A stretch of 64,000 bases of DNA from NCBI GenBank assembly GCA_000024525.1, contig CP001769.1, positions 1,474,001 through 1,538,000 of the forward strand. The letters are read 5' to 3'. A program made the position numbers and the translations under genes. The stretch comes from Spirosoma linguale DSM 74. Its GTDB lineage: Bacteria > Bacteroidota > Bacteroidia > Cytophagales > Spirosomataceae. Of this stretch, positions 13,960 through 60,772 are shown one piece after another (position 1 is the stretch's first letter; every line of letters begins with the position of its first letter). The notes under the pieces were generated by a model. It was given only the letters and a program-made list of their open reading frames with translations, was not told where the DNA came from and did no database searches.

Positions 13960-14068
13960 GTAATACCGTAACGACGGCCCGGCGACCGTCCCGGCCGGGT
14001 GAGCCTGACTAACTGCTAGTCGAGCCTGCCCGACCGGGACGGTCGCCGGGCCGTCGTTACGGTATTAC
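13960..14068. repeat. Paired-palindrome (REPIN-like) intergenic element
   Basis: Two 40-base arms (13960-13999 and 14029-14068) are reverse complements with a single mismatch and are separated by 29 bases. Each arm contains smaller inverted repeats, including the 10-base palindrome CCCGGCCGGG in the left arm. The element fills the gap between susD and the next gene. It would form a very stable RNA hairpin and could attenuate transcription or protect the susD transcript. Confidence 0.85.
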
Positions 14069-14082
14069 AAACTCAATCAACT

Positions 14083-15852
14083 ATGAAAGACATTACAAGA
14101 AAGACCTTTCTGTATCAACTGACTGGCCTGAGTGCTGCCGTTGCTTTGTCACCCTTAATCGCCTGGAAAGCCGATCAACAGGCAGATGATGAATTTTATC
14201 AGAAAGTGGTTGAGGCAAACACGAGAGAAGTGGCTAAACTACTTCAAACGTTCGCGTCGGATATCACCGAACTCCGGCGACGGCTGGGCTTCGATCTGGC
14301 CAATCTGGCGGCTGCATTTAGTGAACCCAGCTCGCCCTATTACCGGAAGACGGAGCTGGTGCCAGTCATGGATAAAATCATTCGCTTTCTAGTGGCGAAA
14401 CAGCAGGACGATGGTACGCTCGATTTGGGCAATCTGGCTTCTCCGCCCGATACGGCCTTTATTCTAGAGCCGCTTTGTACGGCTGCTACTATTCTAAAAA
14501 CGGCTGATCTACCCGCGTTGGTGGAGGTAAAGGCGCAGTTAAAACAGTTCATCCTGAAGGCGGGTGAAGCCCTGCGAACGGGGGGCATCCATACCCCAAA
14601 CCATCGGTGGGTGGTGTCGGCCGCGCTGGCCAAGATCAATGCTTTGTTCCCGAACCCGGGCTATGTCAGGCGGATTGATGAATGGCTGTCGGAAAGGGTG
14701 TTTATTGACAAAGAGGGGCATTACCTCGAACGGAGCATGATCTATTCGGAGGTGATCGACCGTTGCCTGATTACGATGGCGCACCTGCTCAAACGACCTC
14801 AACTGCTGGAGCCGGTCCGCCGGAACCTGCAAATGACTTACTTTTATCTGGAACCCAACGGCGATCTGGTCACGAACGATTCGCGACGGCAGGACCAGTA
14901 TATGACCGTCAACTGCTTGCCGTACTACCTTGATTACCGCTATATGGCCATTCAGGATACGAACCCTGAGTTTGCCACTATCACCCGGTATATTGAAACG
15001 GTAAAAGGTTTTGACGAGCGAACTGGTCCAGACTTATTGGCCTATTTTCTGGAAACGCCCCTCTATAGGAAGTCGCTGCCGACGCCCAAAGCACCGTCGA
15101 TAAACTTTGAAAAGTTTTTCCAGGAAACGAACCTCGTCCGAATCCGACGAAACCATACGACGACCACTATTTTTGGCGGTACGGACTTCCCGTTTATTGT
15201 CGCTTCGGGACGGTCGGCAAGCCCTAACTTCTTCGCTTTTCGTAAGGGAGAGGCTATTCTGAACTACATGCGCCTGTCGACCAGCTTTTTCAATACCGGC
15301 TATTTTCACAGTCAGGGTATTACCTACAATCAGGGGGAATACGTACTACATCAGAAAATCGACGCGCCCTATTACCAGCCCTTACCCAACAAGTACAAAC
15401 TCGCGACGGGAGACTATAAACATTCTCCCAGCACCGACGGGCGTTTCTGGAATAAAATGGATTTTGGCCACCGACCCCAGAGCAACATCAAAACCATCGA
15501 AACCCGTATTGCCATTCGTGAAACCAACGGAGCAAACGAACTGCGGTTTTCGGCGAAAGGAGCGGCTGGCGTTCAGGTAACGATTGAGCTTTGCTTTAAA
15601 GCAGGCGGGCAGGTGAGTGGGCTGAAAAAAATAGTCGATACGGCCGACAACTATTCCATAGACGGCGAATCGGGGCAGTACACCTATGGTAAAGACACCA
15701 TTCAGTTCGGGCCGGGTTTGTTTACGCATAAGAAAATCAGCGGCCTTGAAGGGGAAGTCTACTCGTCTCATTTCGGCAGCCTAAAAACAGAAGGTATTCA
15801 TGTGTACCTGACAGCCGTTACGCCCTTCGAGCATACCTTTCGCATTGGATAA
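14083..15852 (+). CDS. Secreted protein of unknown function, possibly lyase-like toroid plus beta-sandwich
   Basis: A 589-aa exported protein that I cannot assign firmly. The N-terminus (TRKTFLYQLTGLSAAVALSP) looks like a signal peptide. Residues about 40-330 are mainly helical with repeated hairpins, including GGIHTPNHRWVVSAAL and HYLERSMIYSEVIDRCL. The C-terminal part is beta-rich, with many Tyr, Asn and Gly residues. This helical-toroid then beta-sandwich plan resembles heparinase II/III-like polysaccharide lyases, and the NHRW and YSEVID histidine/tyrosine sites could be catalytic. It follows susD on the same strand, which suggests a role in handling the same substrate. The function is inference only. 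Confidence 0.55.
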   Translation: MKDITRKTFLYQLTGLSAAVALSPLIAWKADQQADDEFYQKVVEANTREVAKLLQTFASDITELRRRLGFDLANLAAAFSEPSSPYYRKTELVPVMDKIIRFLVAKQQDDGTLDLGNLASPPDTAFILEPLCTAATILKTADLPALVEVKAQLKQFILKAGEALRTGGIHTPNHRWVVSAALAKINALFPNPGYVRRIDEWLSERVFIDKEGHYLERSMIYSEVIDRCLITMAHLLKRPQLLEPVRRNLQMTYFYLEPNGDLVTNDSRRQDQYMTVNCLPYYLDYRYMAIQDTNPEFATITRYIETVKGFDERTGPDLLAYFLETPLYRKSLPTPKAPSINFEKFFQETNLVRIRRNHTTTTIFGGTDFPFIVASGRSASPNFFAFRKGEAILNYMRLSTSFFNTGYFHSQGITYNQGEYVLHQKIDAPYYQPLPNKYKLATGDYKHSPSTDGRFWNKMDFGHRPQSNIKTIETRIAIRETNGANELRFSAKGAAGVQVTIELCFKAGGQVSGLKKIVDTADNYSIDGESGQYTYGKDTIQFGPGLFTHKKISGLEGEVYSSHFGSLKTEGIHVYLTAVTPFEHTFRIG

Positions 15853-15868
15853 ACAATTTCGTGCTGTT

Positions 15869-16819
15869 TCAGGGCAGCAACTTCCTGATCTGAGCATCCA
15901 GTTCGGCGGCTTTGGCCTGTGCTTCGGTGAGGGGCAGGCCCACGTTCATGCCGGGGCGTTTGTGGCCGGTGGCGGTCAGCCACGCATCTTTCATCAGGCT
16001 CTGACGGGCGGCAATAAGTTTGATAATCTGCCCCGAATTAGGAACCATAGCTACCGAAGCGGCCAAATCGGGGGCGCTGGCTACGGCTTTCTCGCCCATT
16101 CCCAGTAAGATGCTTTTCGCCATGATCCAGTGGCCCACATCGCCGGGATGGACGCCATCATTCGCCAGCGCGAACCCATTAATCCCAAAGGTTGCATCAA
16201 CCTTTCGGTGGGCTTCCAGATACGTTTTCATGGGGTAATGAAGATCGATGACCGACCAGTTCGCTGTTGATTTCTGGCTCAGTAGCCAATCGGAGTAGCG
16301 GTCGAGGACGGCCGCATAGCCTTTGCTGCTGCCCCGCTGTTCATCATAAATAGGCGGAGTCAGGTGAACGATAGGCACGCCCAGTTTGACGACTTCCGCA
16401 TGAAGCCAGTTGATTCCATCCCTGAATTTCTGAAACCGGCTCTCATCCAGTGGCAGATAAATACCATCGTTCATGCCGTAACAGGCGAAAACGAAATCCG
16501 GCTTGGTGAGTTTTAGTACCCGTTCCAAACGTTCGTGCAGGTCGGGGCGGGGGAATTTGCCATCGGCATGACCTTCCTCCGACAGCCCTGAAACGGTTTC
16601 GCTAGGCAGACCGACATTGATGAACTCAATCGACTGGTTGGGATAACGCAACCGGAAATAAGCGTCTATATCCGTGACGTACGTACCAGCGTAGGTAATA
16701 CTGTTGCCCAGAAATACTACCCGATGCACATTGGCGGGGAACGGAGTTTGGGCTTGAGAAACGCTAGTCAGCCCGCCACTGAAAAACAAAAGCAGGAGTA
16801 CCCGTCGAATGGTTGTCAT
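15869..16819 (-). CDS. Secreted SGNH/GDSL hydrolase (probable carbohydrate esterase)
   Basis: A 316-aa exported esterase with a signal peptide (LLLLFFSGGLTSVSQAQ). The SGNH blocks are clear: block I GNSITY (Ser nucleophile), block II Gly in GLPSETVSGL, block III GMND (Asn), and block V DGVHP (Asp and His). Members commonly remove acetyl groups from plant polysaccharides. The start codon overlaps the stop of the upstream GH106 gene by 4 bases (ATGA), so the two are co-translated. It converges on the gene ending at 15852 with only 16 bases between them and no terminator seen. The exact ester substrate is unknown. Confidence 0.85.
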   Translation of the reverse strand: MTTIRRVLLLLFFSGGLTSVSQAQTPFPANVHRVVFLGNSITYAGTYVTDIDAYFRLRYPNQSIEFINVGLPSETVSGLSEEGHADGKFPRPDLHERLERVLKLTKPDFVFACYGMNDGIYLPLDESRFQKFRDGINWLHAEVVKLGVPIVHLTPPIYDEQRGSSKGYAAVLDRYSDWLLSQKSTANWSVIDLHYPMKTYLEAHRKVDATFGINGFALANDGVHPGDVGHWIMAKSILLGMGEKAVASAPDLAASVAMVPNSGQIIKLIAARQSLMKDAWLTATGHKRPGMNVGLPLTEAQAKAAELDAQIRKLLP

Positions 16820-19455
16820 AAGCTGGATGGGGTTAAGATGACCGGGCCGAGCAAGCCGGAGGGTACAGCCGCCCAGCGTGTAGCATCAAAAGGCTTATAC
16901 CGAATATCGACGATGTTGATGTCGTAAAACTTCTTCCAGCCGGGGTTTAGCCGGTCGTAAAGCCGCATGTAGTTGGCCGATAGGTTGGTTACGTCGATTT
17001 CCAGTTGATTCTCACCCGTTTTCAGGCGGTTAGCGGGTATCGTTAGCTGAAACGGGATGCACCAGGCCGTTCCCAATGGCTGGCCGTTCAGTCGCACCTC
17101 CGCCAATTCCCGAACATCGCCGAGGTCGAGAAGGTAAGCGGAGGTCGCAGCGCCAGCGGGGATGTTGACCGTTGTGGTGTAGCGTGCCGTTCCGGAGAAG
17201 TACCCGGCCGAGTCGGAAAGTGTTGTCCAGTCGGTAAGAGTGGGTAGTGTAACCGATAGCCTAAGCGCCGGCTGACCCTGTTCCGGATTTCGCTTGATAA
17301 ACTGAATGTGCCAGGGTTTTTTCAGCACAATAGATGTTCCAGTGGGGTTTATAACCCGCTGTAGTGCTGCTGCATCGGTAAAAACGGGCGTTCCCGGACG
17401 GACATTGATAAAACACGATTGCCCTGATTCAAGAGATAGATACACATCGTTGTGGCCATTCTTCCCTTTTCGAACGGGTAATGCCGTCGTCAGATTTGTT
17501 AACGGGTTATACTGACTAACGAGGCCCGTTGCTGAAAGGGTAATCCAGCCCTGCTTAAACCGGTTGCCAAGATTCGTGATAAAATACTGCGTGGTATCTG
17601 CCGAAAGGCCGGATTTCGACATGCCCGAACCTTGCCGTTTACGAATGAACGACAACCCCTCTGCCGCCCAGGTTTCCGAGCGAACGCCCGATTTGTTCAG
17701 AGTTTCGAACAGGTTGGCACTGACCGTGACAGTTGGCCGTTTCTGAAGCGTTTGGCCAAGCTGCTGTACGGTTGCTGTTTGCGCCTTGTGGTCATAAAAG
17801 CCAGCCGCCTGCTGAGGCAGCTGCCCGTCGAAAACGATTCTGGCGCCTTGCTGAGCCAGTTTGTCTAATAACCGAAGTGTAGTAGTGGGAATATAGGTGG
17901 TTTTCGGAACCACAATGACCTGATACGTAGCCCCGCTTGCCGCCCGAATGCCCTGTTTGGTTACGGTTAGGCTCTTGAGCAATTCGTCGGAAATGAAGTC
18001 GAACGCATACCCGCGCTCCGACAACTGCTCGCACAAACGCCCGAATGGTTGCGGCAACAGCCAACGCTCCACATGGTGAACCTCCAACTGATGAATCCCG
18101 CCCGCTGATTTCGCCCGGGTTGCCCAGAGATCGTGGATGGGGAAATAAACCAGCACGTCGTTGTCGGGTTTGCTGCGCTGTAACCGCGCCTGACAGCGTT
18201 CGATGTACTGATTCAGCAGCGGTAGATGCGGCCAGAAATGGGAACTTGGACCGTAGTTTGTTGACGCATAAAACGACCAGCCTGGCCAGCGTTCAGCCGG
18301 GGGCGAGTAGGGGATACCGTGGTAAAAAATATGGTTGATCCCCGACGCCAGTAACTCATCGACCTGCGGCTTTACCTGCGATAGCGACACCTGAAAATGG
18401 TTAGCTAGCCAGGTGCCGGTTTCCGAACTTACCAGCAGTTTGCCCATCAGGTGAGCCGCCGACGAAGCGAACTTCATAGCGAGCGGATTAGGCGTGCCAA
18501 AGCGGTCTACTTCATAGTTGGCATCGACGCGCAGACCCGGAATAGTAAACCGGCTGGAGCCGAACGACTCGGTTTCGGGAATGTCGGTGGCAGCGTAAAG
18601 GTCGATCAGGTTACCGGGCGAGCCATGCGCCTGGTTGCGAGTACGGTAGCCCGACTTATGCGCCCAGTTGTCCCAGGGTTTCGCAAAGCCGTCGAGCAAC
18701 AGCTCAGACAACGTTTGGTGGTAATCCTGATGAACGAGAATGCTGGTTTCAGTCTGATTCGTATCCAGAAAAGCAGTTAACTGGCTTTGGAGATCATAGC
18801 CTCGCCGGGCTTTAAATTCGGTTAGGAAATTATCTGTCCAGTTCGCGCCATACACTTCGTAGGAGTCATTGTAGACGGCGCGGGGCTGCTGGGGCGAATG
18901 CGCCAGCGTTGAATCGAACCGGTGGAGATACCGTTCCACCGCTTGTTTGCTGAAATAATCAATAACGGGACCCTGTGCGCCCGGTGCGGGGCGTTTGACC
19001 TGTTGTTTGGTTGGAACGGCCGTCAGTTTACCGTCAACTAGTTTCCATTCTTTAGCCGCCATCGCCGTTGATACGCCCGGCCCGCCAAAGGGCCAGCCGG
19101 TGCCGGTGGTCAGGTCAACGCCCAGCCCGAGCCGGTTGCCTTCACGAACGGTATGCCCAAAAACGGCCAGCCATCTGTCAGACAGGTAGGGAATGAATTT
19201 GGTTTCGTAGCCTTTAACCCCATAAATCGGGATGATATGGACGCCCCCCAGCCCGGCTTTGGCAAACTGTTCGAGCTGGTGGGTGATGTCTGCTTCGTTG
19301 ACTGCATTACCCATCCACCACCAGTACGTCCAGGGGCGGGCAGTATGGCCCATTGCCTGCTGCTTTGGTGCGACTTGCTGCTGTTGAGCGCAGACTACCG
19401 GGCTAAGATGCAGCCCCAAAAGAAGAAGTAAGGCCGCCGGGAAAGAGTACTTCAT
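16816..19455 (-). CDS. GH106-type alpha-L-rhamnosidase-like glycoside hydrolase
   Basis: An 879-aa secreted enzyme with a signal peptide (LLLLLGLHLSPVVCAQ). The start of the mature protein is typical of GH106: RPWTYWWWMGNAVNEADIT, then LEQFAKAGLGGVHIIPIYG and LGVDLTTGTGWPFGGP. A long catalytic region and a C-terminal beta-sandwich (AEVRLNGQPLGTAWCIPFQL) follow. GH106 enzymes remove alpha-L-rhamnose from rhamnogalacturonan and related glycans. The downstream SGNH esterase overlaps by 4 bases. The gene begins 69 bases after the MG2/plug protein, so it may belong to the TonB-receptor operon upstream. A second GH106 gene starts at 62885. Confidence 0.85.
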   Translation of the reverse strand: MKYSFPAALLLLLGLHLSPVVCAQQQQVAPKQQAMGHTARPWTYWWWMGNAVNEADITHQLEQFAKAGLGGVHIIPIYGVKGYETKFIPYLSDRWLAVFGHTVREGNRLGLGVDLTTGTGWPFGGPGVSTAMAAKEWKLVDGKLTAVPTKQQVKRPAPGAQGPVIDYFSKQAVERYLHRFDSTLAHSPQQPRAVYNDSYEVYGANWTDNFLTEFKARRGYDLQSQLTAFLDTNQTETSILVHQDYHQTLSELLLDGFAKPWDNWAHKSGYRTRNQAHGSPGNLIDLYAATDIPETESFGSSRFTIPGLRVDANYEVDRFGTPNPLAMKFASSAAHLMGKLLVSSETGTWLANHFQVSLSQVKPQVDELLASGINHIFYHGIPYSPPAERWPGWSFYASTNYGPSSHFWPHLPLLNQYIERCQARLQRSKPDNDVLVYFPIHDLWATRAKSAGGIHQLEVHHVERWLLPQPFGRLCEQLSERGYAFDFISDELLKSLTVTKQGIRAASGATYQVIVVPKTTYIPTTTLRLLDKLAQQGARIVFDGQLPQQAAGFYDHKAQTATVQQLGQTLQKRPTVTVSANLFETLNKSGVRSETWAAEGLSFIRKRQGSGMSKSGLSADTTQYFITNLGNRFKQGWITLSATGLVSQYNPLTNLTTALPVRKGKNGHNDVYLSLESGQSCFINVRPGTPVFTDAAALQRVINPTGTSIVLKKPWHIQFIKRNPEQGQPALRLSVTLPTLTDWTTLSDSAGYFSGTARYTTTVNIPAGAATSAYLLDLGDVRELAEVRLNGQPLGTAWCIPFQLTIPANRLKTGENQLEIDVTNLSANYMRLYDRLNPGWKKFYDINIVDIRYKPFDATRWAAVPSGLLGPVILTPSSL

Positions 19456-19524
19456 GGATTGATTAACTGTATAAAAAGCCCTGCAAGGAATACAACGTAC
19501 CCATTATGGCCGTACTGTACTCAC

Positions 19525-21930: not shown

Positions 21931-21956
21931 AGGGGAGGTCGTTTTGTGGCTGGCTC

Positions 21957-23072: not shown

Positions 23073-23086
23073 CGTATTGTCAAACT

Positions 23087-23182
23087 GTTACGCAGAGATT
23101 CGCAGAGAAAAATGAGATTCGCGGAGGATTAGTAAAAAAAGCTCTGTGTATCTCTGTGCTCCTCCGTGTATCTCTGCGTAAC
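23087..23182. repeat. CACAGAG-type intergenic inverted repeat
   Basis: The left arm (23087-23107) and right arm (23162-23182) are reverse complements at 18 of 21 positions. The spacer contains further GCAGAG and CTCTGTG copies, so the whole 96-base stretch is built from about 10-base CGCAGAGAT-like units. It fills the gap between the receptor stop and the DUF4249 start. Related sequence is found at 32700-32767 and 33973-34016. Confidence 0.75.
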
Positions 23183-23188
23183 AACCAT

Positions 23189-30534: not shown

Positions 30535-31650
30535 ATGGAACAAACACCCTGGTATTCGATTGCCGACATTGCCCGACTCGATACGCCCGCCCTGGTGATT
30601 TATCCCGAACGGGTAAGACAGAATATTGCCTCGCTGGTTCGATCTATTGACAGCGTAGATCGGTTGCGTCCGCACGTCAAAACCAGTAAGTCGCGGGAGG
30701 CTTCGCAGTTGCTGATGGATGCCGGTATTCGCAAGTTAAAATGCGCCACCATTGCCGAAGCCGAAATGCTGGCGTCGATCGGGGCGCCTGATGTACTGCT
30801 GGCCTATCAGCCAAACGAAGCCAAGATGCACCGGCTGCTGAGCCTGATAAAAGCGTATCCCGAAACGATATTTTCCTGTCTGGTCGATAACGTGACCACT
30901 GCCCACCAGCTTTCAGAACTGGCCGTGGGAGCCGGGGTCGTCGTGCCTGTTTATATCGACTTAAATGTGGGTATGAACCGCACGGGCATGGTACCCGGCG
31001 AGGCCGTACTGACTCTGTACACCGAATTGTCGTCCTTGCCGGGTATCCGGCCAATGGGACTTCATGCGTACGATGGACACCTTCGCGACCCGGATCTGGC
31101 CGTTCGGACGGCTCAGTGCGACACCGCTTTCTGGCCCGTCAAACTGCTGAGCGATACGATTGCAGCTCGTGGGCTCGGCAAACCCATTCTTGTGGTAGGC
31201 GGAAGCCCGACGTTCCCGATCCACGCCAAAAGGCCCGATGTGGAGTGCAGCCCCGGCACGTTTATCTACTGGGACAAAGGGTATCAGTCTACGCTGGCTG
31301 AGCAGCCGTTTTTACCGGCGGGTATGGTCGTGACGAGGGTTATTTCCCTGCCCGACGCCACCAAAGTCTGTCTGGACGTTGGCCATAAATCCATTGCTGC
31401 CGAAGGCGAATTAAGCCAGCGGATCACCTTTCTGAATGCCCCCGAACTGAATGCCATTGGGCAGAGTGAGGAGCATCTGGTTGTGGAAGCGGGTGAAGGC
31501 CATTCCTATAAAGTAGGGGATGTGCTCTACGGCCTGCCCCACCACATTTGCCCAACCGTTGCCCTCTACGAGCGAGCTTACACGGTTGAGAACGGAGCCC
31601 TTTCGGGCGAGTGGCGTACCGTCTCCCGCGACCGGGTGATATCAATATAG
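30535..31650 (+). CDS. D-threonine aldolase / D-serine dehydratase-like PLP enzyme
   Basis: A 371-aa member of the alanine-racemase N-terminal fold (type III PLP enzymes). The entry motif is DTPALVIY, and the PLP lysine is probably in RPHVKTSK. The C-terminal metal site is HHICPTVALY (His and Cys), as in D-threonine aldolase and metal-dependent D-serine dehydratase. The reaction would be D-threonine to glycine plus acetaldehyde, or D-serine to pyruvate. The tight link to a RidA gene slightly favours a dehydratase, but the sequence does not decide. A 34-bp perfect hairpin follows the stop. Confidence 0.82.
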   Translation: MEQTPWYSIADIARLDTPALVIYPERVRQNIASLVRSIDSVDRLRPHVKTSKSREASQLLMDAGIRKLKCATIAEAEMLASIGAPDVLLAYQPNEAKMHRLLSLIKAYPETIFSCLVDNVTTAHQLSELAVGAGVVVPVYIDLNVGMNRTGMVPGEAVLTLYTELSSLPGIRPMGLHAYDGHLRDPDLAVRTAQCDTAFWPVKLLSDTIAARGLGKPILVVGGSPTFPIHAKRPDVECSPGTFIYWDKGYQSTLAEQPFLPAGMVVTRVISLPDATKVCLDVGHKSIAAEGELSQRITFLNAPELNAIGQSEEHLVVEAGEGHSYKVGDVLYGLPHHICPTVALYERAYTVENGALSGEWRTVSRDRVISI

Positions 31651-31651: not shown

Positions 31652-31723
31652 ATGGTCTTGGTGTGGTGTAAGGTGGTGTCGGGTTTGAGAACCCGACACC
31701 ACCTTACACCACACCAAGACCAT
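31652..31723. repeat. Perfect 34-bp hairpin between convergent genes (REPIN-like)
   Basis: Arms 31652-31685 and 31690-31723 are exact reverse complements around a 4-base loop (TGAG). It starts 1 base after the stop of the PLP-enzyme gene and ends 9 bases before the stop of the convergent methyltransferase, so it can serve as a terminator for both. The core GTGTCGGGT/ACCCGACAC is shared with the element at 38056-38132. Confidence 0.9.
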
Positions 31724-32542: not shown

Positions 32543-32590
32543 TGGTTGGTGGTTATTGGTTATTGAGTGATTGGTTAATAGTTAATGAGT

Positions 32591-32654
32591 GTACTTACGG
32601 GCTTTAGCCCGTAATTCAGACTACTGTCATATACGGGCTAAAGTCCGTAGGTAC
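32591..32654. repeat. Paired-palindrome element with self-complementary arms
   Basis: Arms 32591-32613 and 32632-32654 are reverse complements at 21 of 23 bases with an 18-base spacer. The left arm is itself a palindrome (TACGGGCTTTAGCCCGTA), and the right arm is a mutated copy of it. This is the architecture of a REPIN: two REP hairpins in inverted orientation. Confidence 0.85.
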
Positions 32655-32699
32655 ATCCTAATTACCCAATTTAGTTAACGAGTAAAGAATAACTCAATA

Positions 32700-32767
32700 A
32701 ACACAGAGGCACAAAGTACACAGAGGTTTCGGGGCTGATTCCTCTGTGTACTTTGTGCCTCTGTGTT
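32700..32767. repeat. CACAGAG-type perfect inverted repeat
   Basis: Arms 32700-32726 and 32741-32767 are exact 27-base reverse complements with a 14-base loop. The arm consists of two CACAGAGG units flanking CACAAAGTA. It lies 18 bases from the stop of the mutarotase gene, so on the minus strand it could act as its terminator. It is directly next to the element at 32591-32654. Confidence 0.9.
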
Positions 32768-34086: not shown

Positions 34087-34788
34087 CTAGCAACCCTGTC
34101 CGTAGTAGGCGTTTTTGCCGTGTTTGCGCTCGTAGTGTTTTAATCGTAACGTATCCTTGATGCGGGGTGTATTGGGGTTAATTTGTAAGGTTAGATACGC
34201 CATTCGGGCCAGTTCTTCCAATACAGCGGAGTTGTAAACGGCTTTCTCGGCCGATTTGCCCCACGTAAACGGCCCGTGATTTTGCAGTAGGACCATTTCC
34301 ATTTCCGTATGGACCAACCCTTTTTCGGAGAAGCAGTTAAAGATCTGGTGGCCCGTTTCGTGCTCATAATCGCCCTGAATCATCTCATCGGTCAGCGCCG
34401 GGGCGCAGGGGATATCCTGGTGCGTATGGTCAGCGTGCGTGGTTCCGAAAATCGGAATATCCATGCCCGCCTGCGACCAGGCTACGGCGTGAGTACTGTG
34501 GGTATGGGAAATGCCTCCCAGGGTATCCCAGGTTTTATAGAGCAGCGCGTGGGTTTTTGTATCGGATGAGGGCCGCAACTGACCCTCAACAACACGACCC
34601 TCATAATCGCAGATGACAATATCGTCGGCCGTCAGCTTTTCATACGGAACTCCGCTGGGTTTGATGGCAAACACCGCCCGCTCGCGGTCAACCGCGCTAA
34701 CATTCCCGAACGTAAACAGCACCAGCCCCAGCTTGGGAAGCTGCATATTAGCCTCGTAACATTCTTCTTTTAGGGATGTATACATCAT
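34087..34788 (-). CDS. araD: L-ribulose-5-phosphate 4-epimerase
   Basis: A 233-aa class II aldolase-fold epimerase that converts L-ribulose-5-phosphate to D-xylulose-5-phosphate, the last step of arabinose use. Landmarks are the FGNVSAVDRE phosphate loop, KPSGVPYEKL, the metal-binding ISHTHSTHAVAWSQAG and LLQNHGPFTWG. I start at the ATG pair at 34785/34788 (MMYTSLKEEC); the 23 extra residues back to 34857 are translated from the neighbouring repeat and are not protein-like. It lies in the order araB, araA, GH51, araD, mutarotase. Confidence 0.95.
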   Translation of the reverse strand: MMYTSLKEECYEANMQLPKLGLVLFTFGNVSAVDRERAVFAIKPSGVPYEKLTADDIVICDYEGRVVEGQLRPSSDTKTHALLYKTWDTLGGISHTHSTHAVAWSQAGMDIPIFGTTHADHTHQDIPCAPALTDEMIQGDYEHETGHQIFNCFSEKGLVHTEMEMVLLQNHGPFTWGKSAEKAVYNSAVLEELARMAYLTLQINPNTPRIKDTLRLKHYERKHGKNAYYGQGC

Positions 34789-34789
34789 G

Positions 34790-34877
34790 AATTTTGAATG
34801 AGTGAATGATAGAATGAGTGAATAATAAAATAGTTCTTCGGCCATTCTATCATTCACTCATTCTATTATTCAAAATT
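34790..34877. repeat. Inverted repeat between the GH51 gene and araD
   Basis: The left side has a 16-base unit in tandem (GAATGAGTGAATGATA, then GAATGAGTGAATAATA). The right side (34844-34863) is the exact reverse complement of 20 bases of it, and the outer AATTTTGAA pairs with TTCAAAATT at the end. The right arm includes the stop codon of the GH51 gene, and the left arm touches the araD start codon. Confidence 0.75.
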
Positions 34878-36442: not shown

Positions 36443-36496
36443 AAAGAGGACAATAGCGAAAGGGAGTAGAATCGCCTTTTCGCTATTGCCCTCTTT
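36443..36496. repeat. Inverted repeat between araA and the GH51 gene
   Basis: Arms 36443-36461 and 36478-36496 are reverse complements with one mismatch (19 bases, core TTCGCTATTG). It begins 7 bases beyond the araA stop and ends 26 bases before the GH51 start, so it lies within the probable polycistronic transcript. Confidence 0.8.
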
Positions 36497-38055: not shown

Positions 38056-38132
38056 TATGTGGTGTCGGGTCCTCAGACCCGACACAGGTTGCTGACGCGA
38101 GTGTGTCGGGTCTGAGGACCCGACACCACATA
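38056..38132. repeat. Paired-palindrome element with self-complementary arms (30 bp, perfect)
   Basis: Arms 38056-38085 and 38103-38132 are exact reverse complements with a 17-base spacer. Each arm is also a hairpin: GTGTCGGGTC, a 4-base loop, then GACCCGACAC. The same GTGTCGGGT core is present in the element at 31652-31723, so the two are members of one repeat family. It lies between the araB stop and the araA start. Confidence 0.9.
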
Positions 38133-38174: not shown

Positions 38175-39809
38175 TTATTTATTTTCCACAAATTCACCCA
38201 GTTTCAGATACTTCTGATACAGCGTTTCGTAAATAGCGGCCTGCTCAGCACGGGGATGGTATTCGGCGTCGAAGCCCGAACCCATGGCTTTCTGGGCCGC
38301 TTCCATCGTTGGATGAACACCAGCCGCCACGGCTGCACACATGGCCGCACCCAGCGCACAGGCCTGGTCGGCGCTGGCTACCTGAATGGGCTTGTTCAGC
38401 ACATCGGCGAGGGTTTGCATCACGAAGGGCGATTTTTTGGCGACGCCACCAATGGCAATTACTTTTTTGATCGGGACGCCTTCCTCGATAAACCGCTCCA
38501 TGATACTCCGCGATCCGAACGCGGTTGCTTCCACCAGCGCTTTGAAAACTGCCGGGGCATCGGTGCCCAGATTTAAACCCGAAATGGCGGCCTTGAGCGT
38601 GTGGTTGGCATCGGGTGTTCGCCGTCCGTTGATCCAGTCCAGCGCCACAATATCGTTTTCCGTAACGGGCAGTTTTGCCGCCTGTGCCGACAGGTGCGGA
38701 ATCAACTGCTTCGACAGGGCGTCGGCCGCTTCGGTGCCCAGCAATTCACGGACGGGGCCGGTAATCAGGCGGGCGAACCAGGCGTAAACATCGCCAAAGG
38801 CCGATTGCCCGGCTTCCAGCCCAAGCATTCCCGGCGCTACGGACCCATCCACCTGTCCGCAAATGCCGCGAATCAGCCGGTGACCAATCTCTTCGTTCGG
38901 AGCCATCAGAATATCGCAGGTCGACGTACCGATGATTCGGACGAAGGCATACGGCTCAATTTCGGCCCCGATGGCTCCCATGTGCGCATCGAATGCGCCA
39001 ACGCCAACGACAACATTCGTTGACAGCCCTAATTTATCGGCCCATTCTGCCGACAGCTTACCCATGGGTAGATCGGAGGTGAACGTATCCGTGAACAGCC
39101 GCTCACGCATACCGCCCAGCAGCGGGTCGAGCTTTGTTAGAAATTCAGTGGAGGGTAAACCGTCGAACTCGCTATGCCAGAGGGCTTTGTGCCCCGCTGC
39201 ACAACGCGACCGGCGGAGGGTCAGCGGGTTGGTGTTGCCGGTAAGCACCGCCGACATCCAATCGCAGTGTTCAACCCAGGAAAAGGCGTGTTCACGCACG
39301 GCTTCATCGACGCGCAGGGTACGGAGCATCTTGGCCCAGAACCACTCGGAGGAGTAAATACCGCCTACATATTTCGTGTAGTCGGTATCCCAATGGTGAG
39401 CCAGGTTGTTGATTTCTTCGGCTTCCGCATTGGCCGTATGGTCTTTCCACAAGATAAACATCCCGTTGGGGTTTTCGGCAAAATCGGGCCGGAGGGCGAG
39501 GGGGAGACCCGTTTCGTCGACCGGGCCGGGTGTAGAGCCGGTGGTGTCGATGGAGATACCAACAACCCCTTTCCGAACGTCTTCCGAAACGTTGGCCAGT
39601 GCCCCGGTTATGGTTGCTTCCAGCCCTTCGAGGTAGTCGAGTGGGTGCTGCCGGAACTGAGAGGTGGCTGGATTACAGTAAAGACCCTGTTTCCAGCGGG
39701 CGTATTCGTGGACGTGGGTTCCGGCGGTTTCGCCGGTCTGGGCATTGACAACCAGCGCCCTGACCGAGTCAGTACCGAAGTCAACGCCAATCACATAGGA
39801 ATTAGTCAT
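38175..39809 (-). CDS. araB: Ribulokinase
   Basis: A 544-aa FGGY-type sugar kinase that phosphorylates L-ribulose to L-ribulose-5-phosphate. The N-terminal ATPase motif is VIGVDFGTDSVRALVV, followed by ISIDTTGSTPGPVDETGLPL, and the C-terminal half has GVGAFDAHMGAIGA, the FGGY-like region and IAIGGVAKKSPFVMQTLADV. It is the first gene after the regulator and probably leads the arabinose operon. The 201-base gap upstream (39810-40010) contains a candidate operator. Confidence 0.96.
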   Translation of the reverse strand: MTNSYVIGVDFGTDSVRALVVNAQTGETAGTHVHEYARWKQGLYCNPATSQFRQHPLDYLEGLEATITGALANVSEDVRKGVVGISIDTTGSTPGPVDETGLPLALRPDFAENPNGMFILWKDHTANAEAEEINNLAHHWDTDYTKYVGGIYSSEWFWAKMLRTLRVDEAVREHAFSWVEHCDWMSAVLTGNTNPLTLRRSRCAAGHKALWHSEFDGLPSTEFLTKLDPLLGGMRERLFTDTFTSDLPMGKLSAEWADKLGLSTNVVVGVGAFDAHMGAIGAEIEPYAFVRIIGTSTCDILMAPNEEIGHRLIRGICGQVDGSVAPGMLGLEAGQSAFGDVYAWFARLITGPVRELLGTEAADALSKQLIPHLSAQAAKLPVTENDIVALDWINGRRTPDANHTLKAAISGLNLGTDAPAVFKALVEATAFGSRSIMERFIEEGVPIKKVIAIGGVAKKSPFVMQTLADVLNKPIQVASADQACALGAAMCAAVAAGVHPTMEAAQKAMGSGFDAEYHPRAEQAAIYETLYQKYLKLGEFVENK

Positions 39810-46915: not shown

Positions 46916-47104
46916 AGAATAAAAAGTATCCTGCGTGAGCCCTTACGCTTTCTAAGAAACGGCTCTACTAAGTTCATAGAAGAAAGAGCATGTGTGAGCC
47001 GTTCTTTACCCAAAGATTCAGTTAAAAACTGCCAGAGCATGGTGTGTTGACCGATTTTGCGTTGTCTCGTTCTGGCTATATGGCGGAATAACCCAGGACC
47101 GCTC

Positions 47105-47221
47105 GGCATAGTCTGTGACTATGTCGGTGTGTTATCCGGTCTCTGACCGGAGTTTATCGAATAGCCTGATAAGTACCGGTCAGAGACCGGATAACATACC
47201 GACATAGTCACAGACTATGCC
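47105..47221. repeat. Large paired-palindrome element (46-bp arms) between uxaB and kdgK
   Basis: Arms 47105-47150 and 47176-47221 are reverse complements with one mismatch and a 25-base spacer. Each arm contains two smaller hairpins: CATAGTC-TGT-GACTATG and CCGGTC-TCT-GACCGG. It begins 23 bases beyond the uxaB stop. It is the longest such element in the window. The other 190 bases of the gap (46916-47104) hold a weak 12-base inverted repeat (46954-46965 with 46996-47007) and nothing else of note. Confidence 0.88.
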
Positions 47222-47244
47222 CAACGCTCCCCTGGCAACAGTCT

Positions 47245-48822: not shown

Positions 48823-48976
48823 AAATTAGCGGACGGGTTAATAGTGACCAAAGAAGATCGAAAATTATCTTTTTCTAGGAATAGTCTGTGATGAAACCGG
48901 CGTGTGTCTTCTGAGAGACAGCTTAAGAGTAAGGAGGGTATTTATTAAATAGAAGAATTAAGCCATATTTATTCAC

Positions 48977-49000
48977 GCAAACGTTATCGGGAACGTTACC
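48977..49000. promoter_or_regulatory. Candidate LacI-family operator in the uxaB/lacI divergent gap
   Basis: The core AACGTT-ATCGGG-AACGTT is a symmetric dyad, flanked by GC on the left and ACC on the right. It matches the site at 59228-59251 at 19 of 24 positions. It lies about 155 bases upstream of uxaB and 116 bases upstream of the LacI gene, so it could control both. The 293-base gap holds no gene. Confidence 0.6.
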
Positions 49001-49115
49001 ACGTTTAGGAATGCGTTTGGGTAATTGGCCTATGGGTAGCAAACGGGCCGAAAGACCTTATTAAAGCAGGCTGTCTGGGTGCCAGCAATTTTTTGTATTT
49101 TACTAATACGCCAAC

Positions 49116-50120: not shown

Positions 50121-50122
50121 CA

Positions 50123-50202
50123 AGTGTACCCGACAGCATCTTGCTGTCGGCGCTAACCAGCTTATTTTTAGCCGCCGACAGCAAGATGCTGTCGGGTACA
50201 CT
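50123..50202. repeat. Paired-palindrome element between convergent genes
   Basis: Arms 50123-50152 and 50173-50202 are exact 30-base reverse complements with a 20-base spacer. Each arm contains a hairpin CCGACAGCA-TCT-TGCTGTCGG. It starts 2 bases after the LacI stop and ends 5 bases before the GH78 stop, so it can end both convergent transcripts. Confidence 0.9.
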
Positions 50203-50207
50203 CCACC

Positions 50208-53063: not shown

Positions 53064-53110
53064 AGAGTGAATGGGTATATGGACACTATAAGTAACAGAC
53101 AGGTGGTGAC

Positions 53111-54580: not shown

Positions 54581-54601
54581 GGCTGATTATCGGTTGGCCG
54601 G

Positions 54602-56017: not shown

Positions 56018-56404
56018 TACTTTTTTAGGAAAGGGTTGGAAATGAGGTTGTTCGTTCAAAGATGTCAAAGCTTAGCGGACCTTAAATGCACTGTTTTAGT
56101 GCGAGCACAGCACATAGCATCCTATAGACAAACAAAGCTGCATTATTACGGGTAAAATTGAAATTTTTTTAGGAATTTATGAATCCTTTTAAGGATTGCT
56201 ATGCCTGTAAGTAAGTTTCCTAAGCCTATACACCTTAGAAAGGGGCATAGGCCAGAACTTTATATGTCGGTAGACGTTAAGCTATCGTTTTGAGGGTGAT
56301 GAACGAAAGGCCAGCGCCCTTGTGACATTGATTGGCTGCTTTCGTCCGAATAATAGCCTTATCGTGACACGGTTGTCCCGATTTTCAATTGTTAATTCAG
56401 TCTA
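56018..56404. other. Divergent promoter region without a gene
   Basis: This 387-base AT-rich gap separates the minus-strand sulfatases from the plus-strand amidase. It has a small palindrome (AATCCTTTTAAGGATT, near 56188) but no long repeat, operator or gene that I can support. Confidence 0.45.
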
Positions 56405-57448
56405 TTGCATCTGTTAGCCCTACTTATCATTTGCCTGACATTTTCAGGAATTACTTCTTCGGAAGCCGTTCGTGCCCCGTCTTATAGTATACGGGGTATC
56501 AGTCGCAACCAGCAATCGGGTCAGAAAAAGAAGAAGGTCAGTAAATCGCCCCGGCAAACGAAGAAGGTACGAAAAACCAGTGCGCGTAAGCCCGTTCAGG
56601 CCCGCCCCAAGTCGAAAAAGACTCGCCAGACCCTGCCTGCTGCCAAACGAAATCGTACAATTGTTTCCACAAAAAAAAGAAAACCCGTTGTTAAAAAAGT
56701 ACCCTTGCCCGTAAGCCGACGACTCGCTATTATGGGTAGCCGGTACGCAACCATCCCAACCCTGGACGGTCAGCTTAGCGGAACGGTGTATTACCTGGCC
56801 TCCGGGCATGGCGGTCCTGATCCGGGCGCTATTGGCAAGTATGGAAAACAACGACTTCCCGAAGATGAGTATGCGTATGATGTGACCCTGCGGCTCGCGC
56901 GGCTGCTGATTCAGCACGGGGCCGCGGTCTACATGATCGTGCAGGATCGGAATGATGGGATTCGGGATGTAGCGGTGCTCCCCATCGACTACGATGAAGT
57001 GGCGTATCCCAATCAGGCTATTCCGTTGAACCAAACCAGTCGGCTACGCCAGACAACCACGGCGGTCAATAGTGAATACGCCCGCCACAAAGGTCGGTAT
57101 CAGCGGTTCGTGACCATTCACGTCGACAGCCGGAGCAAAGGCGAAACGACCGATGTGTTTTTCTACCATCACCCCCAGAGTAAAGTCGGGTTGCGACTGG
57201 CGCGGCACATTCATAAAACGTTTCTGGCCAACTACCGACGTCATCGCCCCGCCCGGCCGTACATGGGTCGGGTGAGCAGCCGGGGGAGCTTATACGTGGT
57301 GAAGAACAGCCACCCGCCCACGGTCTTCATTGAACTGGGTAACATCCAGAATTCACTGGATCAGCGCCGGTTTTTGATCCCGCAAAACCGGCAGGCCCTG
57401 GCCAACTGGATGTGCCAGGGCATACTGACGGATTACAGGACACGGTAA
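56405..57448 (+). CDS. N-acetylmuramoyl-L-alanine amidase (Amidase_3 type)
   Basis: A 347-aa exported zinc amidase that cuts the bond between MurNAc and the stem peptide. It starts at a TTG (56405) with a signal peptide (HLLALLIICLTFSGITSS). A basic linker, rich in K and R, spans about 40-110. Zinc and catalytic residues are His in LASGHGGPDPGA, Glu in DEYAYD, His in TIHVDS and Glu in VFIELGN. It is not related to the pectin genes and converges on the polygalacturonase gene with 12 bases between the stops. Confidence 0.88.
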   Translation: MHLLALLIICLTFSGITSSEAVRAPSYSIRGISRNQQSGQKKKKVSKSPRQTKKVRKTSARKPVQARPKSKKTRQTLPAAKRNRTIVSTKKRKPVVKKVPLPVSRRLAIMGSRYATIPTLDGQLSGTVYYLASGHGGPDPGAIGKYGKQRLPEDEYAYDVTLRLARLLIQHGAAVYMIVQDRNDGIRDVAVLPIDYDEVAYPNQAIPLNQTSRLRQTTTAVNSEYARHKGRYQRFVTIHVDSRSKGETTDVFFYHHPQSKVGLRLARHIHKTFLANYRRHRPARPYMGRVSSRGSLYVVKNSHPPTVFIELGNIQNSLDQRRFLIPQNRQALANWMCQGILTDYRTR

Positions 57449-57460
57449 GCAACACCCGAT

Positions 57461-59095
57461 TTATTTCTTCATAGTGAGGGCATTGGCCGGGGCGGACGCG
57501 TCGGTTTCTACCGTTTTTTTCGCGTGCGTAGTGTCGGTGTTCAGAAGCCGGATATTGCCGGACCGTTCCCCTGCTATGTGCATCAGCAAGTCAGCTTTAT
57601 CCGTAAAGTGAATGGTATCCAGCGTAATGTCGCGGCTGTTCTGCACTTGCATAACCGTTTTGTTGGTGGTGAGCAGCGACACGTTTTTCAGCCGGATATT
57701 TTCCGCTTCGATGCAAACCAGTCCTTTCCGGCTTTGCAGCACCGCATTTTCAATCAGAATATCTTTTACCGCCATTTCGGGTAAGCCCCGGATCAGAATG
57801 GCGGTTTCGGCACCTTTGCAGGTCACGTTCCGAATCTGAAACGACCGGAACTGGGGCGTAGCTTCGGAGAGGGGTTGCGGTTGAATAACGGGCAGTTCAT
57901 TGCTTTCGCCCTGTTGAGGCACCGGGTCTTTGGCGGCATAATACATGTCGAACAGAATCGCTTCACCGGCAATGTCGGTCATGTCGATGCCGTCCACGAA
58001 AATGTTTTCGACCACGCCACCCCGGCCCCGCGCCGTTTTAAATCGCAGACCAACATCGGTGCCCATGAACGTACAGTTCGACACGTACAGGTTTTTTACC
58101 CCGCCCGACATTTCGCTGCCAATCACAAACCCACCGTGGGCATGGTACACCCGGCTGTTCCGAACGGTGATGTTTTCGGTCGGAACGCCCCGTTTGCGGC
58201 CCTGTTCATCGCGCCCCGATTTAATACAGATACCATCGTCGCCCACATCGAATGTACAATCGTCGACAAGCCCGTTTCGGCAGGATTCCAGGTCCAGACC
58301 GTCGCCGTTCTGCGCGTACCACGGGTTTTTAGCCGTAACCCGGCGAAGGGTAATGTCTTCACAGAGAAGCGGGTGCAAACACCAGGCGGGTGAATTCTGG
58401 AAGGTAACCCCCTCCAGCAAAATGCGTTTGCAGCGGGTCAGGCTCAACATATTGGGACGCAGGAAATCCTTAATACCCTCATAATACGTCATTGGCTGTC
58501 CTGCTTTTACCGGTTCACTGGCTCCTTTCAGCGATTGCGCGGTTGGGTACCAGGTATCCTGTTTATCATTCAGCACACCGCCAGAGGCAACCAGTTTTTT
58601 CCACTGGTCGGAGGTGAGTTTACCTTTCTTGACCATCCGCCAGGCTTCCCCGGCCCCATCCAGAATACCCTCGCCCGTAATGGCGATATTTTCCAGCCCA
58701 ACCCCCGATATGGGGGCCTGATTTCGAATAGCTTCTTCGCCCTCCCAGGTCGTATTGATGAGTGGATACACCTCGCGCCGGTTCGTAAACTGAAGCAACG
58801 CGCCTTTGGCTAAATGCAGGTTTACGTTACTTTTCAACGTAACAGGCCCCGTCAGCCATAACCCACGTGGAACTAACACAACACCTCCACCGGCTTTAGT
58901 ACACTGGTCAATAGCTTTGTTGATGGCGGCTGTATTCAGGGTCAGGCCATCAGCCACCGCGCCCAGCTTACTGATCGCGATCGTGTCCTTCCGAAAGGTA
59001 GGGACGGATACTTTGGGAAGATCTGCCGGGCTGGCCGACACAAATTGGGCGATGGCGGCCAAGCACAGCGTAGCGAATCCGGTTGCTGTTTTCAT
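57461..59095 (-). CDS. Polygalacturonase, GH28
   Basis: A 544-aa secreted enzyme of the parallel beta-helix fold. I start at the ATG at 59095, which gives a signal peptide (MKTATGFATLCLAAIAQF); the frame to 59146 is longer but lacks one. The GH28 catalytic blocks are NGDGLD, GDDGICIKSG, HGGFVIGSEMSGG and RFKTARGRGG. It hydrolyses polygalacturonan or rhamnogalacturonan backbone bonds and would release galacturonate for the uronate genes. A 24-base operator candidate 133 bases upstream matches that in front of uxaB. Confidence 0.93.
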   Translation of the reverse strand: MKTATGFATLCLAAIAQFVSASPADLPKVSVPTFRKDTIAISKLGAVADGLTLNTAAINKAIDQCTKAGGGVVLVPRGLWLTGPVTLKSNVNLHLAKGALLQFTNRREVYPLINTTWEGEEAIRNQAPISGVGLENIAITGEGILDGAGEAWRMVKKGKLTSDQWKKLVASGGVLNDKQDTWYPTAQSLKGASEPVKAGQPMTYYEGIKDFLRPNMLSLTRCKRILLEGVTFQNSPAWCLHPLLCEDITLRRVTAKNPWYAQNGDGLDLESCRNGLVDDCTFDVGDDGICIKSGRDEQGRKRGVPTENITVRNSRVYHAHGGFVIGSEMSGGVKNLYVSNCTFMGTDVGLRFKTARGRGGVVENIFVDGIDMTDIAGEAILFDMYYAAKDPVPQQGESNELPVIQPQPLSEATPQFRSFQIRNVTCKGAETAILIRGLPEMAVKDILIENAVLQSRKGLVCIEAENIRLKNVSLLTTNKTVMQVQNSRDITLDTIHFTDKADLLMHIAGERSGNIRLLNTDTTHAKKTVETDASAPANALTMKK

Positions 59096-59227
59096 AAGGG
59101 TTTTTATCCCAAAGAAGCCGGAACAGATTCTGCCCCTGGCTTCCAAAGCGGGTTATTCAGTTGGTAATTCTTTTTAAAGTGACTTTAAATCCAGCATTCA
59201 TTCAAGCGATACCACCGTTTTTTTTGT

Positions 59228-59251
59228 GCAATCGTTGCCGGGAACGATGCC
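59228..59251. promoter_or_regulatory. Second copy of the LacI-type operator candidate
   Basis: ATCGTTGCCGGGAACGAT is a near-perfect palindrome, with GCA and GCC on its flanks. It agrees with the 48977-49000 site at 19 of 24 positions, with the changed bases largely compensating across the dyad. It is in the 386-base gap (59096-59481) between the GH28 gene and the CE1 esterase gene and could control either. The gap also has a TACTTTTG -7-like box at 59387-59394 and a 15-base repeat (GGCCTC-CGCCATAA type) at 59427-59461. Confidence 0.6.
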
Positions 59252-59386
59252 GAACCTTGATTTCAGATTGGCTTGAATGGCAGAACACACCATTCCTGCT
59301 TTAGCAAGCTGCAATAAATCGTGCTAAATAGTCCTGAAAAATTCACAAATGGCTCTTTGGCCGTGCTATTGAAAAGGAACTTTATG

Positions 59387-59394
59387 TACTTTTG
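59387..59394 (+). promoter_or_regulatory. Candidate -7 element for the CE1 esterase genes
   Basis: TACTTTTG fits the Bacteroidota -7 consensus TAnnTTTG on the plus strand, 88 bases before the start codon. No convincing -33 TTTG was found at the expected spacing, though TTTG at 59356-59359 is 27 bases upstream. Confidence 0.3.
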
Positions 59395-59481
59395 ACACAA
59401 AGACAATGAGCGATGGCGCGGGCTCTGGCCTCGCGCCATAATCACCGGCCTCACGCCATAAACTTCTGAACCTCTAAACGT

Positions 59482-60639
59482 ATGATAGTCAGTATGAATA
59501 CTTCCCGTTTTTTAGCCACGCTTTTTGCAACAGTTGTTGCGGTTGGCGCTCTGGCGCAGGCCCCCCAGCGGACGCCCACGCCCAACGACACACTCAAATC
59601 ACCCAAAGTACTGGACGACAAGCGGGTCATGATTCAGATTTACGCGCCCAAAGCCAGTGAGGTAACCGTTGGGGGCGATTTTCTGTCGGGAGGCAAGCCC
59701 ATCAGCCTGACAAAAAATGACGTGGGTGTGTGGTCGGCAACAACCAGCCCGCTCCGCCCGGACTATTATTCGTACACGCTCATGGTGGATGGTGTTCGGA
59801 CGATGGACCCCAAGAACCCGGTCATTAAACAGGGAATCAGCAGCCTCGAAAACATCATGCTCGTGCCGGGTGCCGAAACCGCTTTCGAAGACATCAAGGC
59901 CGTGCCGCATGGCGAAGTACGGGAGGTCTGGTATTCATCAAAAGCACTCAACATGATGCGCCGGATGCACGTCTATACGCCACCGGGCTACGAAAAAGGC
60001 ACGACTAAATACCCGGTTTTTTACCTGCTGCACGGGGCTGGCGACGATGATTCGGGCTGGAATACCATTGGCCGGGCGGGCTTCATTATCGACAACCTGC
60101 TGGCTGCCGGACAGGCCAAACCCATGATTGTGGTCATGCCCAACGGGAGCATGCCGCTGCCCCCATCGAGTGGAATGAATGCCCAGGCCATGAATACCAT
60201 CCGGTCGATGTTCGCCAATGACTTTCTTAATGATGTGATGCCCCATGTGGAGAAAACGTACCGAACCCTTCCCAATCGCGAAAACCGGGCACTCGCGGGC
60301 TTGTCGATGGGGGGCTTCCAAACGCTGGATGTGAGCCTGACCCGCCCCGAACTGTTCAACTACGTTGGTGTATTTAGCTCCGGGTTTTTCGGGGCTTCCA
60401 TCGATGAAGCTGAAACCAAGTATGCTAAAGCCTTGAATGACCCTTCGTTCAACAAAAACAAGAAGCTGTTCTGGATCGGCATCGGTAAAGATGATTTTGT
60501 GATGGACGCTAACAAGAAAACGCTGGCCCTGCTCGACAAGCACCAAATCAAATACCAGTATAAAGAAACCTCCGGTGGGCACACCTGGATCAACTGGCGG
60601 CAGTACCTCAATGAATATGTACCGCTGCTGTTCAAGTAG
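59482..60639 (+). CDS. Secreted CE1-type esterase with an N-terminal E-set domain (first of three)
   Basis: A 385-aa exported esterase. After the signal peptide (FLATLFATVVAVGALAQA) comes an immunoglobulin-like E-set domain (about 40-130, VMIQIYAPKASEVTVGGDF). The alpha/beta-hydrolase domain has the oxyanion motif YLLHGAGDDDSGW, the Ser nucleophile S275 in LAGLSMGG, an acid residue in IGKDDF (about 338) and the His at about 367 (GGHTW). It resembles CE1 feruloyl or acetyl-xylan esterases and enterochelin-esterase-like proteins. It could remove ferulate or acetate from pectin side chains. The gene at 61692 is a close paralog. Confidence 0.88.
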   Translation: MIVSMNTSRFLATLFATVVAVGALAQAPQRTPTPNDTLKSPKVLDDKRVMIQIYAPKASEVTVGGDFLSGGKPISLTKNDVGVWSATTSPLRPDYYSYTLMVDGVRTMDPKNPVIKQGISSLENIMLVPGAETAFEDIKAVPHGEVREVWYSSKALNMMRRMHVYTPPGYEKGTTKYPVFYLLHGAGDDDSGWNTIGRAGFIIDNLLAAGQAKPMIVVMPNGSMPLPPSSGMNAQAMNTIRSMFANDFLNDVMPHVEKTYRTLPNRENRALAGLSMGGFQTLDVSLTRPELFNYVGVFSSGFFGASIDEAETKYAKALNDPSFNKNKKLFWIGIGKDDFVMDANKKTLALLDKHQIKYQYKETSGGHTWINWRQYLNEYVPLLFK

Positions 60640-60673
60640 ATTTGTGGTAAGTTACCCCACGGCAGCGGCCGAC

Positions 60674-60772
60674 CACCCCAACCCCTCCCCTAAAAAAGGG
60701 GAGGGGCTAATGAACGACCTACCTTTTTTTGGCCCCTCCCCTTTTTTCAAGGGGAGGGGTTGGGGTGGGGTG
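60674..60772. repeat. Paired-palindrome element of C/G-rich units
   Basis: The left arm (60674-60707) and right arm (60732-60772) are reverse complements apart from an indel and a short extension of CACCCC. Each arm is itself a hairpin of the type CCCCTCCCC-loop-GGGGAGGGG. It fills the gap between the first and second esterase genes. The frame of the second esterase runs back through it, but that is not real protein. Confidence 0.85.

Follow-up and report, generated by a model that had tools for sequence, protein, structure and literature searches.

Introduction

The closest described relatives of the elements treated here are the REPINs of E. coli, Pseudomonas and Stenotrophomonas, inverted doublets of repetitive extragenic palindromic (REP) sequences that lie between genes, occur as several families per genome and have their own REP-associated tyrosine transposase (RAYT) flanked by the same REP (PMC8266576). 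Here we describe seven hairpin-forming sites, assigned to six families (A–F), in a stretch of 64,000 nucleotides (the window, C1:1474001-1538000) of the 8.49-Mb genome of Spirosoma linguale DSM 74 (G000), and conclude that families A–E, which are alike to the above systems in these respects, are very probably REPINs.

As far as the available portions of the respective papers go, the TnpA_Y1 subclasses 2.4 and 2.6 have both been reported in Bacteroidetes, the former with long and "double foot" REPs and the latter with "atypical secondary structures" and copies elsewhere in the genome, and subclass 1.2 is listed with "no" REP (Quentin 2018; PMC6006769). CGTC repeats, Bacteroidetes included, have been reported without a transposase (PMC3733652). 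Changing GTAG into GTAC moved cleavage by the Marinomonas TnpA to GA and GT, and abolished cleavage by the Stenotrophomonas TnpA (PMC8266576). An earlier report of REPINs or RAYTs from Spirosoma was not found in the open-licence literature, preprints excluded.

Results and discussion

Paired palindromes form dispersed intergenic families

The first-pass annotation of the window had listed six gaps containing two inverted copies of a hairpin-forming sequence, and all six read as described, with inverted arms that are 82–100% identical (Table 1). Its seventh site, B2, is indeed a single hairpin having its core in common with the B site, and appears among the matches of the latter. Using one fixed threshold, 12 clusters of close inverted repeats were found in the window, the seven sites among them, compared to 0–3 (mean 0.4) per dinucleotide shuffle (n = 30).

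Table 1 Hairpin sites of the window. Positions are counted from the first base of the window.
Site	Position	Arms	Strand	Evidence
Family D REPIN, long-arm form	13959..14069	13959-14011 / 14017-14069 (53 nt, 89%)	.	Inverted-repeat search; core flanks RAYT L036
Family B (site B2), single long hairpin, "double foot" GTGG...CCAC	31652..31723	31652-31685 / 31690-31723 (34 nt, 100%)	.	Inverted-repeat search; altered arms in G027, G007
Family A REPIN, TACGGGCTTTAGCCCGTA cores, GTAC foot	32590..32655	32590-32613 / 32632-32655 (24 nt, 92%)	.	Inverted repeats; cognate RAYT L181 in sister species G008
Family B REPIN, GTGG foot, TGTCGGGTC...GACCCGACA hairpins	38056..38132	38056-38086 / 38102-38132 (31 nt, 100%)	.	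Inverted repeats; cognate RAYTs L170, L161, L160 in sister species
Family E REPIN, two hairpins per arm (CATAGTC/GACTATG and CCGGTC/GACCGG)	47096..47230	47096-47158 / 47168-47230 (63 nt, 89%)	.	Flanks RAYT L035 on both sides; hairpin covariation
Family C REPIN, GTAC foot, CCGACAGCATCTTGCTGTCGG hairpins	50123..50202	50123-50152 / 50173-50202 (30 nt, 100%)	.	Flanks frameshifted RAYT C1:6142735-6143432; open RAYTs in L162, L163
Family F paired palindrome, CCCCAACCCCTCCCC...	60673..60768	60673-60706 / 60735-60768 (34 nt, 82%)	.	Inverted repeats; no cognate transposase found

When the six paired sites were compared to the whole genome by blastn (E ≤ 10; the B2 hairpin was not used as a separate query), the cores proved to be multi-copy, with none unique, and defined the six families. 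The match rows numbered at least 69 for A, at least 82 for B, 57 for C, at least 108 for D, at least 84 for E and 65 for F, but as both strands of a palindrome are counted separately and weak rows are included, the distinct copies are fewer. With ORFs (open reading frames) alone serving as gene calls, 78 of 86 distinct copies overlap genes by less than 20%, compared to 29 of 258 positions drawn at random from these loci (intergenic copies: A 20/20, B 15/16, C 4/6, D 8/8, E 27/29, F 4/7).

The genes next to 81 copies (overlap below one half, a neighbour on each side) are unidirectional in 42 cases, convergent in 36 and divergent in only 3. Most copies lie 3′ of genes. In the window, the ORF at 30535-31650 ends one base before the B2 hairpin and the C site is located between the 3′ ends of two convergent ORFs. 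These positions would suit unrelated transcription terminators or mRNA-stabilizing hairpins that arose independently at gene ends. We nevertheless consider such an origin very unlikely, as each core recurs at many places in the genome, the same repeats flank RAYT genes, and the A, E and C elements are missing at the corresponding sites of a sister species (both described below). A role as host terminators after insertion is possible.

As in canonical REPIN/RAYT systems, the outer base of the B and D hairpins can carry a GTGG or GTAG foot. GTGG was present in 29 of 42 family B contexts (both strands of each palindrome counted), and the foot of family D is GTAGTACC, with GTAA at the window site and GTAG in other copies, next to an inner core reading GACCGTCCCGG(T/C)C. 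Unlike the canonical systems, family A has the foot GTACC and family C GTAC, and family E has two hairpins per arm; neither GT[AG]G nor GTAC was found as a hairpin foot in families E and F.

Compensatory changes are seen in the hairpins of family E. In an alignment of 30 of the 33 extracted copies (two incomplete copies and a rearranged one were left out), 98.3% of the cells in four local hairpins are paired, and 19 cells carry a change on both sides, compared to 3.6 for shuffled data, where none of 500 runs came as high. Long-range pairing between the arms is weaker. Double-sided change affects 6 pairs versus 5.1 in shuffles, a value reached by 188 of 500, and 17 cells versus 8.0, a value reached by none of 500; the covariation score was reached by 2 of 500. 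Concerted evolution within E elements was considered and rejected, the arms of one copy agreeing at 0.763 and those of different copies at 0.734 (means), with 21 of 33 elements above their own inter-element mean; the small difference is due to E having two different ends.

Cognate RAYT genes across Spirosoma

A PF01797 profile search (E ≤ 0.001) identified seven Y1 transposase genes in the genome (L030-L036), all outside the window, which agrees with the first-pass statement that the window itself encodes no such enzyme. Two intact genes are associated with window families, L035 having family E on both flanks and L036 being flanked by the inner core of D, and L034 is flanked by a further repeat family, G. 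A frameshifted RAYT-like gene, absent from the PF01797 match list, lies between two C copies at C1:6142735-6143432. The products of L034-L036 all score above the PF01797 cut-off and all three contain an HUH motif; L034 (112.4 bits) and L035 (93.2 bits) also exceed the 80-bit cut-off of NCBIfam NF047646 (REP-associated tyrosine transposase) and match the Y-x-NP pattern.

PF01797 matches were found in 29 of 36 Spirosoma genomes, this one included, and the window elements were compared with 69 transposase loci of relatives (29 from the search and 40 fetched, RAYT-like ones first; E ≤ 0.01). In sister species, B or B2 matches adjoin the RAYTs of L170, L161, L151, L160, L172 and L179, C repeats those of L162 and L163, and the D core those of L162, L163 and L175. 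The E repeat adjoins L174 (G027), the G repeat L159, and an A repeat lies beside L181 (G008), where the ORF and both flanks were read. Five of the six families (A–E) hence have a RAYT-type gene flanked by their own repeat.

A phylogenetic tree of 40 proteins was constructed, omitting two pieces shorter than 140 amino acids and four of six subclass 1.2 rows, with the other two subclass 1.2 rows as outgroup. Groups with starred support were obtained for D (L175, L163b, L162b, L036), C (L162a, L163a and the pseudogene piece L061, with one weak fork inside), the B type (L160, L161, L170, L172, L179, L151, with open inner forks), E (L035, L174) and G (L034, L159), and the A-type rows L173 and L181 were placed at an open fork. 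In the loci fetched, the RAYT clades match the repeat families. A single RAYT clade for the GTAC foot is not supported: the tree requires three changes for the GTAC rows, of which one depends on a lone, doubtful match in L178.

The RAYT genes of families D and C are separated by a few kb, here (G000 C1:6139430 and 6142735) as well as in G007 and G015 (L162, L163); a break was seen in just one of these neighbouring genes, the C gene of G000. From its recurrence, the two-enzyme neighbourhood looks inherited.

By their motifs, L035 (NHVH, YIHENP) and L034 (NHLH, YIHYNP) are near subclass 2.6, and L181 and the C genes (NHxH, YTLQNP) near subclass 2.4, with L036 joining the C genes in the tree; the fit of the L034-L036 Y motifs to the 2.4 and 2.6 consensus sequences given in the available portion of PMC6006769 is inexact. 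The GTAC foot, seen here in A and C, is not mentioned for these subclasses in that portion. Judged by the features tested, A–E behave like, and for the most part are, REPINs of RAYTs near subclasses 2.4 and 2.6, a known kind.

It is mainly because of the repeat-RAYT pairing across species that we call A–E REPINs, and inverted REP pairs in several independent dispersed families, each with its own RAYT/TnpA_REP-type HUH-Y1 transposase, are very probably what these elements represent. Short, intergenic sequences with inverted ends could also be miniature inverted-repeat transposable elements, i.e. non-autonomous relatives of an insertion sequence of the double-strand (DDE) type, which has terminal inverted repeats and duplicates its target, but each arm is a hairpin in itself and the same sequences flank Y1 genes. 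Together with the pairing of families and cognate RAYTs, this renders the latter interpretation highly improbable.

Orthologous sites in sister species

Syntenic regions were compared in G027 (about 90% identity), G007 and G015, with one genome per species and flanks that are 80–90% identical. The A, E and C elements are missing at the syntenic sites of G027, where the length residues are -5, -11 and 16 bases, respectively, and the junctions are blurred. The C site holds a single hairpin in G007, and only the A and E sites are empty in all three relatives. At the D site, G007 has a short-arm form with the same core, each arm being 16 bases shorter than in this genome. At the B site it is G007 that carries 16 additional bases in both arms, with a spacer that matches the reverse complement of the one found here (a 13-base run, versus 5 in direct orientation), and G027 has a single hairpin. 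At B2, three species retain the hairpin; its G007 version shows a compensatory change, and in this genome the arms are longer on both sides. Joint change of both arms between species was thus seen at three of the seven sites (D, B and B2), a pattern suggestive of arm-to-arm copying on a hairpin by template switching or gene conversion; recombination between the arms would invert the spacer. The F site is present in worn form in G027, and in its place G007 has a paired palindrome of the type found beside L030.

Several observations weigh against REPINs mobilized by RAYTs. The PF01797 search found no cognate for A or B in this genome, which, like the broken C cognate, sets these families apart from canonical systems; a worn A or B gene could have escaped this search, just as the broken C gene did. 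The E cognate of G027, L174, has one in-frame stop. L036 reaches 71.2 bits with NF047646, below the cut-off although above that of PF01797, and does not match the Y-x-NP pattern. At five of the seven sites (B, B2, C, D and F) the same or an altered hairpin occurs in at least one sister species, which points to old rather than recent insertions, and neither a clean insertion junction nor a target site was seen in the three-species comparison at this level of flank identity. As to copy number and adjoining RAYTs, the first-pass proposal gave the outcome it had predicted: it holds for A–E with regard to their same-repeat RAYT flanks, whereas for F no cognate was found. At the orthologous gaps, A, E and C are absent from G027 without the precise junctions it had envisaged.

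Family F also counts against a uniform explanation. The 69 loci compared above gave no F match (E ≤ 0.01), and visual inspection of the F places listed showed none within 1 kb of a listed PF01797 match. Among the ORFs listed for three F loci of this genome no transposase was recognized, no library search having been made. The family is present at E ≤ 1e-8 in at least 14 of 36 Spirosoma genomes, one of which (G006) has F matches but no PF01797 match. These observations and the missing GT[AG]G or GTAC foot would be explained if F alone were a different kind of palindromic repeat, moved by no Y1 enzyme. Its paired architecture and dispersal are, on the other hand, like those of the other families, and the lack of a cognate in this genome is common to F, A and B. 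We give this explanation an even chance; F, for want of a cognate, is left open and not filed as a REPIN.

Other inverted repeats were noted in the window. Those of the ACAGAGG/CTCTGCGTAACA kind, assigned to none of the families, occur at 32700-32767 (perfect 27-nt arms) and 23086-23183, with inverted repeats also at the syntenic sister sites. An inverted repeat at 34796-34872, located at the start of the ORF 34087-34857, is found in the same place in each of the four species compared, with little difference in length, and may be regulatory rather than mobile. The joined syntenic stretch of G007 (L198, L200) contains paired palindromes at 38704-38828 and 64292-64441 that are unlike those in the same gaps of the window (a small hairpin near 36443-36496, and family F, respectively).

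Subclass 1.2 genes and a hairpin-GTAG tag

The other four Y1 genes (L030-L033) have the Y-x3-Q-x2-HH motif and the short IS200-like core described for subclass 1.2. They were examined for repeats shared by the left and right flanks, since inverted repeats of at least 36 bits within a flank are also found in 24 of 120 random intervals. Within the genus, shared left-right repeats of at least 36 bits were found at 18 of 27 subclass 1.2 rows (one gene appearing twice; 17 of 26 genes), 17 of 26 RAYT rows and none of 120 random intervals, loci with a flank below 400 bases being omitted. A scan of named genomes with 14 subclass 1.2 proteins, restricted to the best 80 of at least 588 loci (L260-L339; Bacteroidota titles on all but three), gave shared flank repeats for 37 of the 67 genes whose flanks were both of sufficient length, compared to 1 of 107 control intervals from the same loci.

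The flanks of these genes contain a recurrent tag, made up of a short hairpin (stem 5-7 bp, loop of the GT(T)A type) and a GTAG downstream of it (consensus GTCCC-GT(T)A-GGGAC-NNAATATN-GGTAGAAAA). GTAG was found 7-9 nt downstream of the hairpin end in 125 of 768 cases versus 3 of 267 in controls. No upstream GTAG peak was seen at the canonical foot position among the hairpins of subclass 1.2 flanks, and a rise 24-30 nt upstream was taken for neighbouring units. The distance from loop to GTAG is 14 nt in 126 of 135 motifs (13-15 allowed); these 135 occur in 61.4 kb near the genes, compared to 0-2 in each of 20 shuffles, and at least one motif is present in 55 of the 80 named loci versus 6 of 138 control intervals. 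With the gene on the plus strand, the tags were distributed as L+ 44, L- 20, R+ 25 and R- 40, the hairpin pointing outward and GTAG inward in 84 of 129. This geometry differs from that of canonical REPs and presumably resembles the right end of IS200/IS605 elements.

Within Spirosoma, the tag was found at 14 of 27 subclass 1.2 rows (one gene appearing twice) and 2 of 27 RAYT rows. Further copies of the L030-type repeat were located at five places in this genome, four being nested inverted pairs of the same polarity, and at one place in G007; two weak matches (E 0.33 and 0.61) were left out of this count. For the L031-type repeats, the rest of this genome yielded only four matches, all weak (E between 6e-4 and 0.18). 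The tag form is missing at two of the four subclass 1.2 genes here (L032 and L033) and at 25 of the 80 named loci. Dispersal outside Spirosoma is slight at best, the far regions of the 80 loci holding 8 motifs in 252.6 kb compared to 1-9 (mean about 3) in 20 shuffles. The array of L360 on a Bernardetia plasmid matched five places in its record at E ≤ 10, the best of which was shown, and in two 50-kb Bernardetia stretches read by pattern the tag was found only at the flanks of one transposase gene. The Persicobacter locus L361 contains no hairpin-GTAG motif.

An Rfam Flavo-1 RNA was found 3′ of the subclass 1.2 gene in 2 of 20 loci scanned, at a distance of about 160 bases in L272 (3109-3168) and about 225 bases in L292 (3178-3281). 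In L272 this RNA does not overlap the tag.

The tagged genes differ from subclass 1.2 as tabulated in the available portion of PMC6006769, in that GTAG-hairpin flanks are found in and beyond Spirosoma instead of "no" REP. They are alike to TIRYT genes, which have long terminal inverted repeats and GTAG/CGTC palindromes, in being tyrosine transposase genes bracketed by inverted repeats able to form small families; in the latter the tag is at one end of the palindrome, compared to 14 nt 3′ of the loop here (PMC3733652, available portion). On balance we lean slightly towards a wider interpretation, in which subclass 1.2, published as IS200-related with neither IS ends nor REPs, would provide the enzyme for a second type of REP system, distinct in geometry and occurring across Bacteroidota, with the 5-7-bp hairpin and the GTAG 14 nt 3′ of its loop as substrate and paired non-autonomous copies spread in Spirosoma, and in which GTAC-foot REPs would re-aim RAYT cleavage and arms would be kept alike by arm-to-arm copying with spacer inversion. 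As far as searches of the literature go, no earlier report was found of a GTAC foot in two families or of the subclass 1.2 tag.

Proposed mechanism and significance

For the REPINs of families A–E, the cognate Y1 enzyme would probably bind single-stranded DNA at the hairpins and at the four bases of their 5′ foot (GTGG for B, GTAG for D and GTAC for both A and C). By cutting and rejoining single strands, the enzyme would copy or move the pair to another single-stranded intergenic site. With one genome per species and no clean junctions, mobility is inferred, and the binding, cutting and movement by the cognate enzyme, as well as the target site, are predicted. Family C probably moved by means of the gene that is now broken, and A and B are probably relics or mobilized in trans.

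This one genome contains at least eight repeat families (A–G and the L030 type) as well as seven Y1 genes and a further, broken one. The RAYT-REPIN partnership can hence be followed here as a set, comprising an intact pair, a broken gene and cases in which no gene was found. The natural GTAC-foot families lend themselves to testing the guide-sequence model, as A and C would be cut at GA or GT if it holds. The subclass 1.2 tag is a candidate substrate for an enzyme class that has none in the available portion of its defining paper (PMC6006769). It would also be relevant to the domestication of IS200 transposases into REP enzymes.

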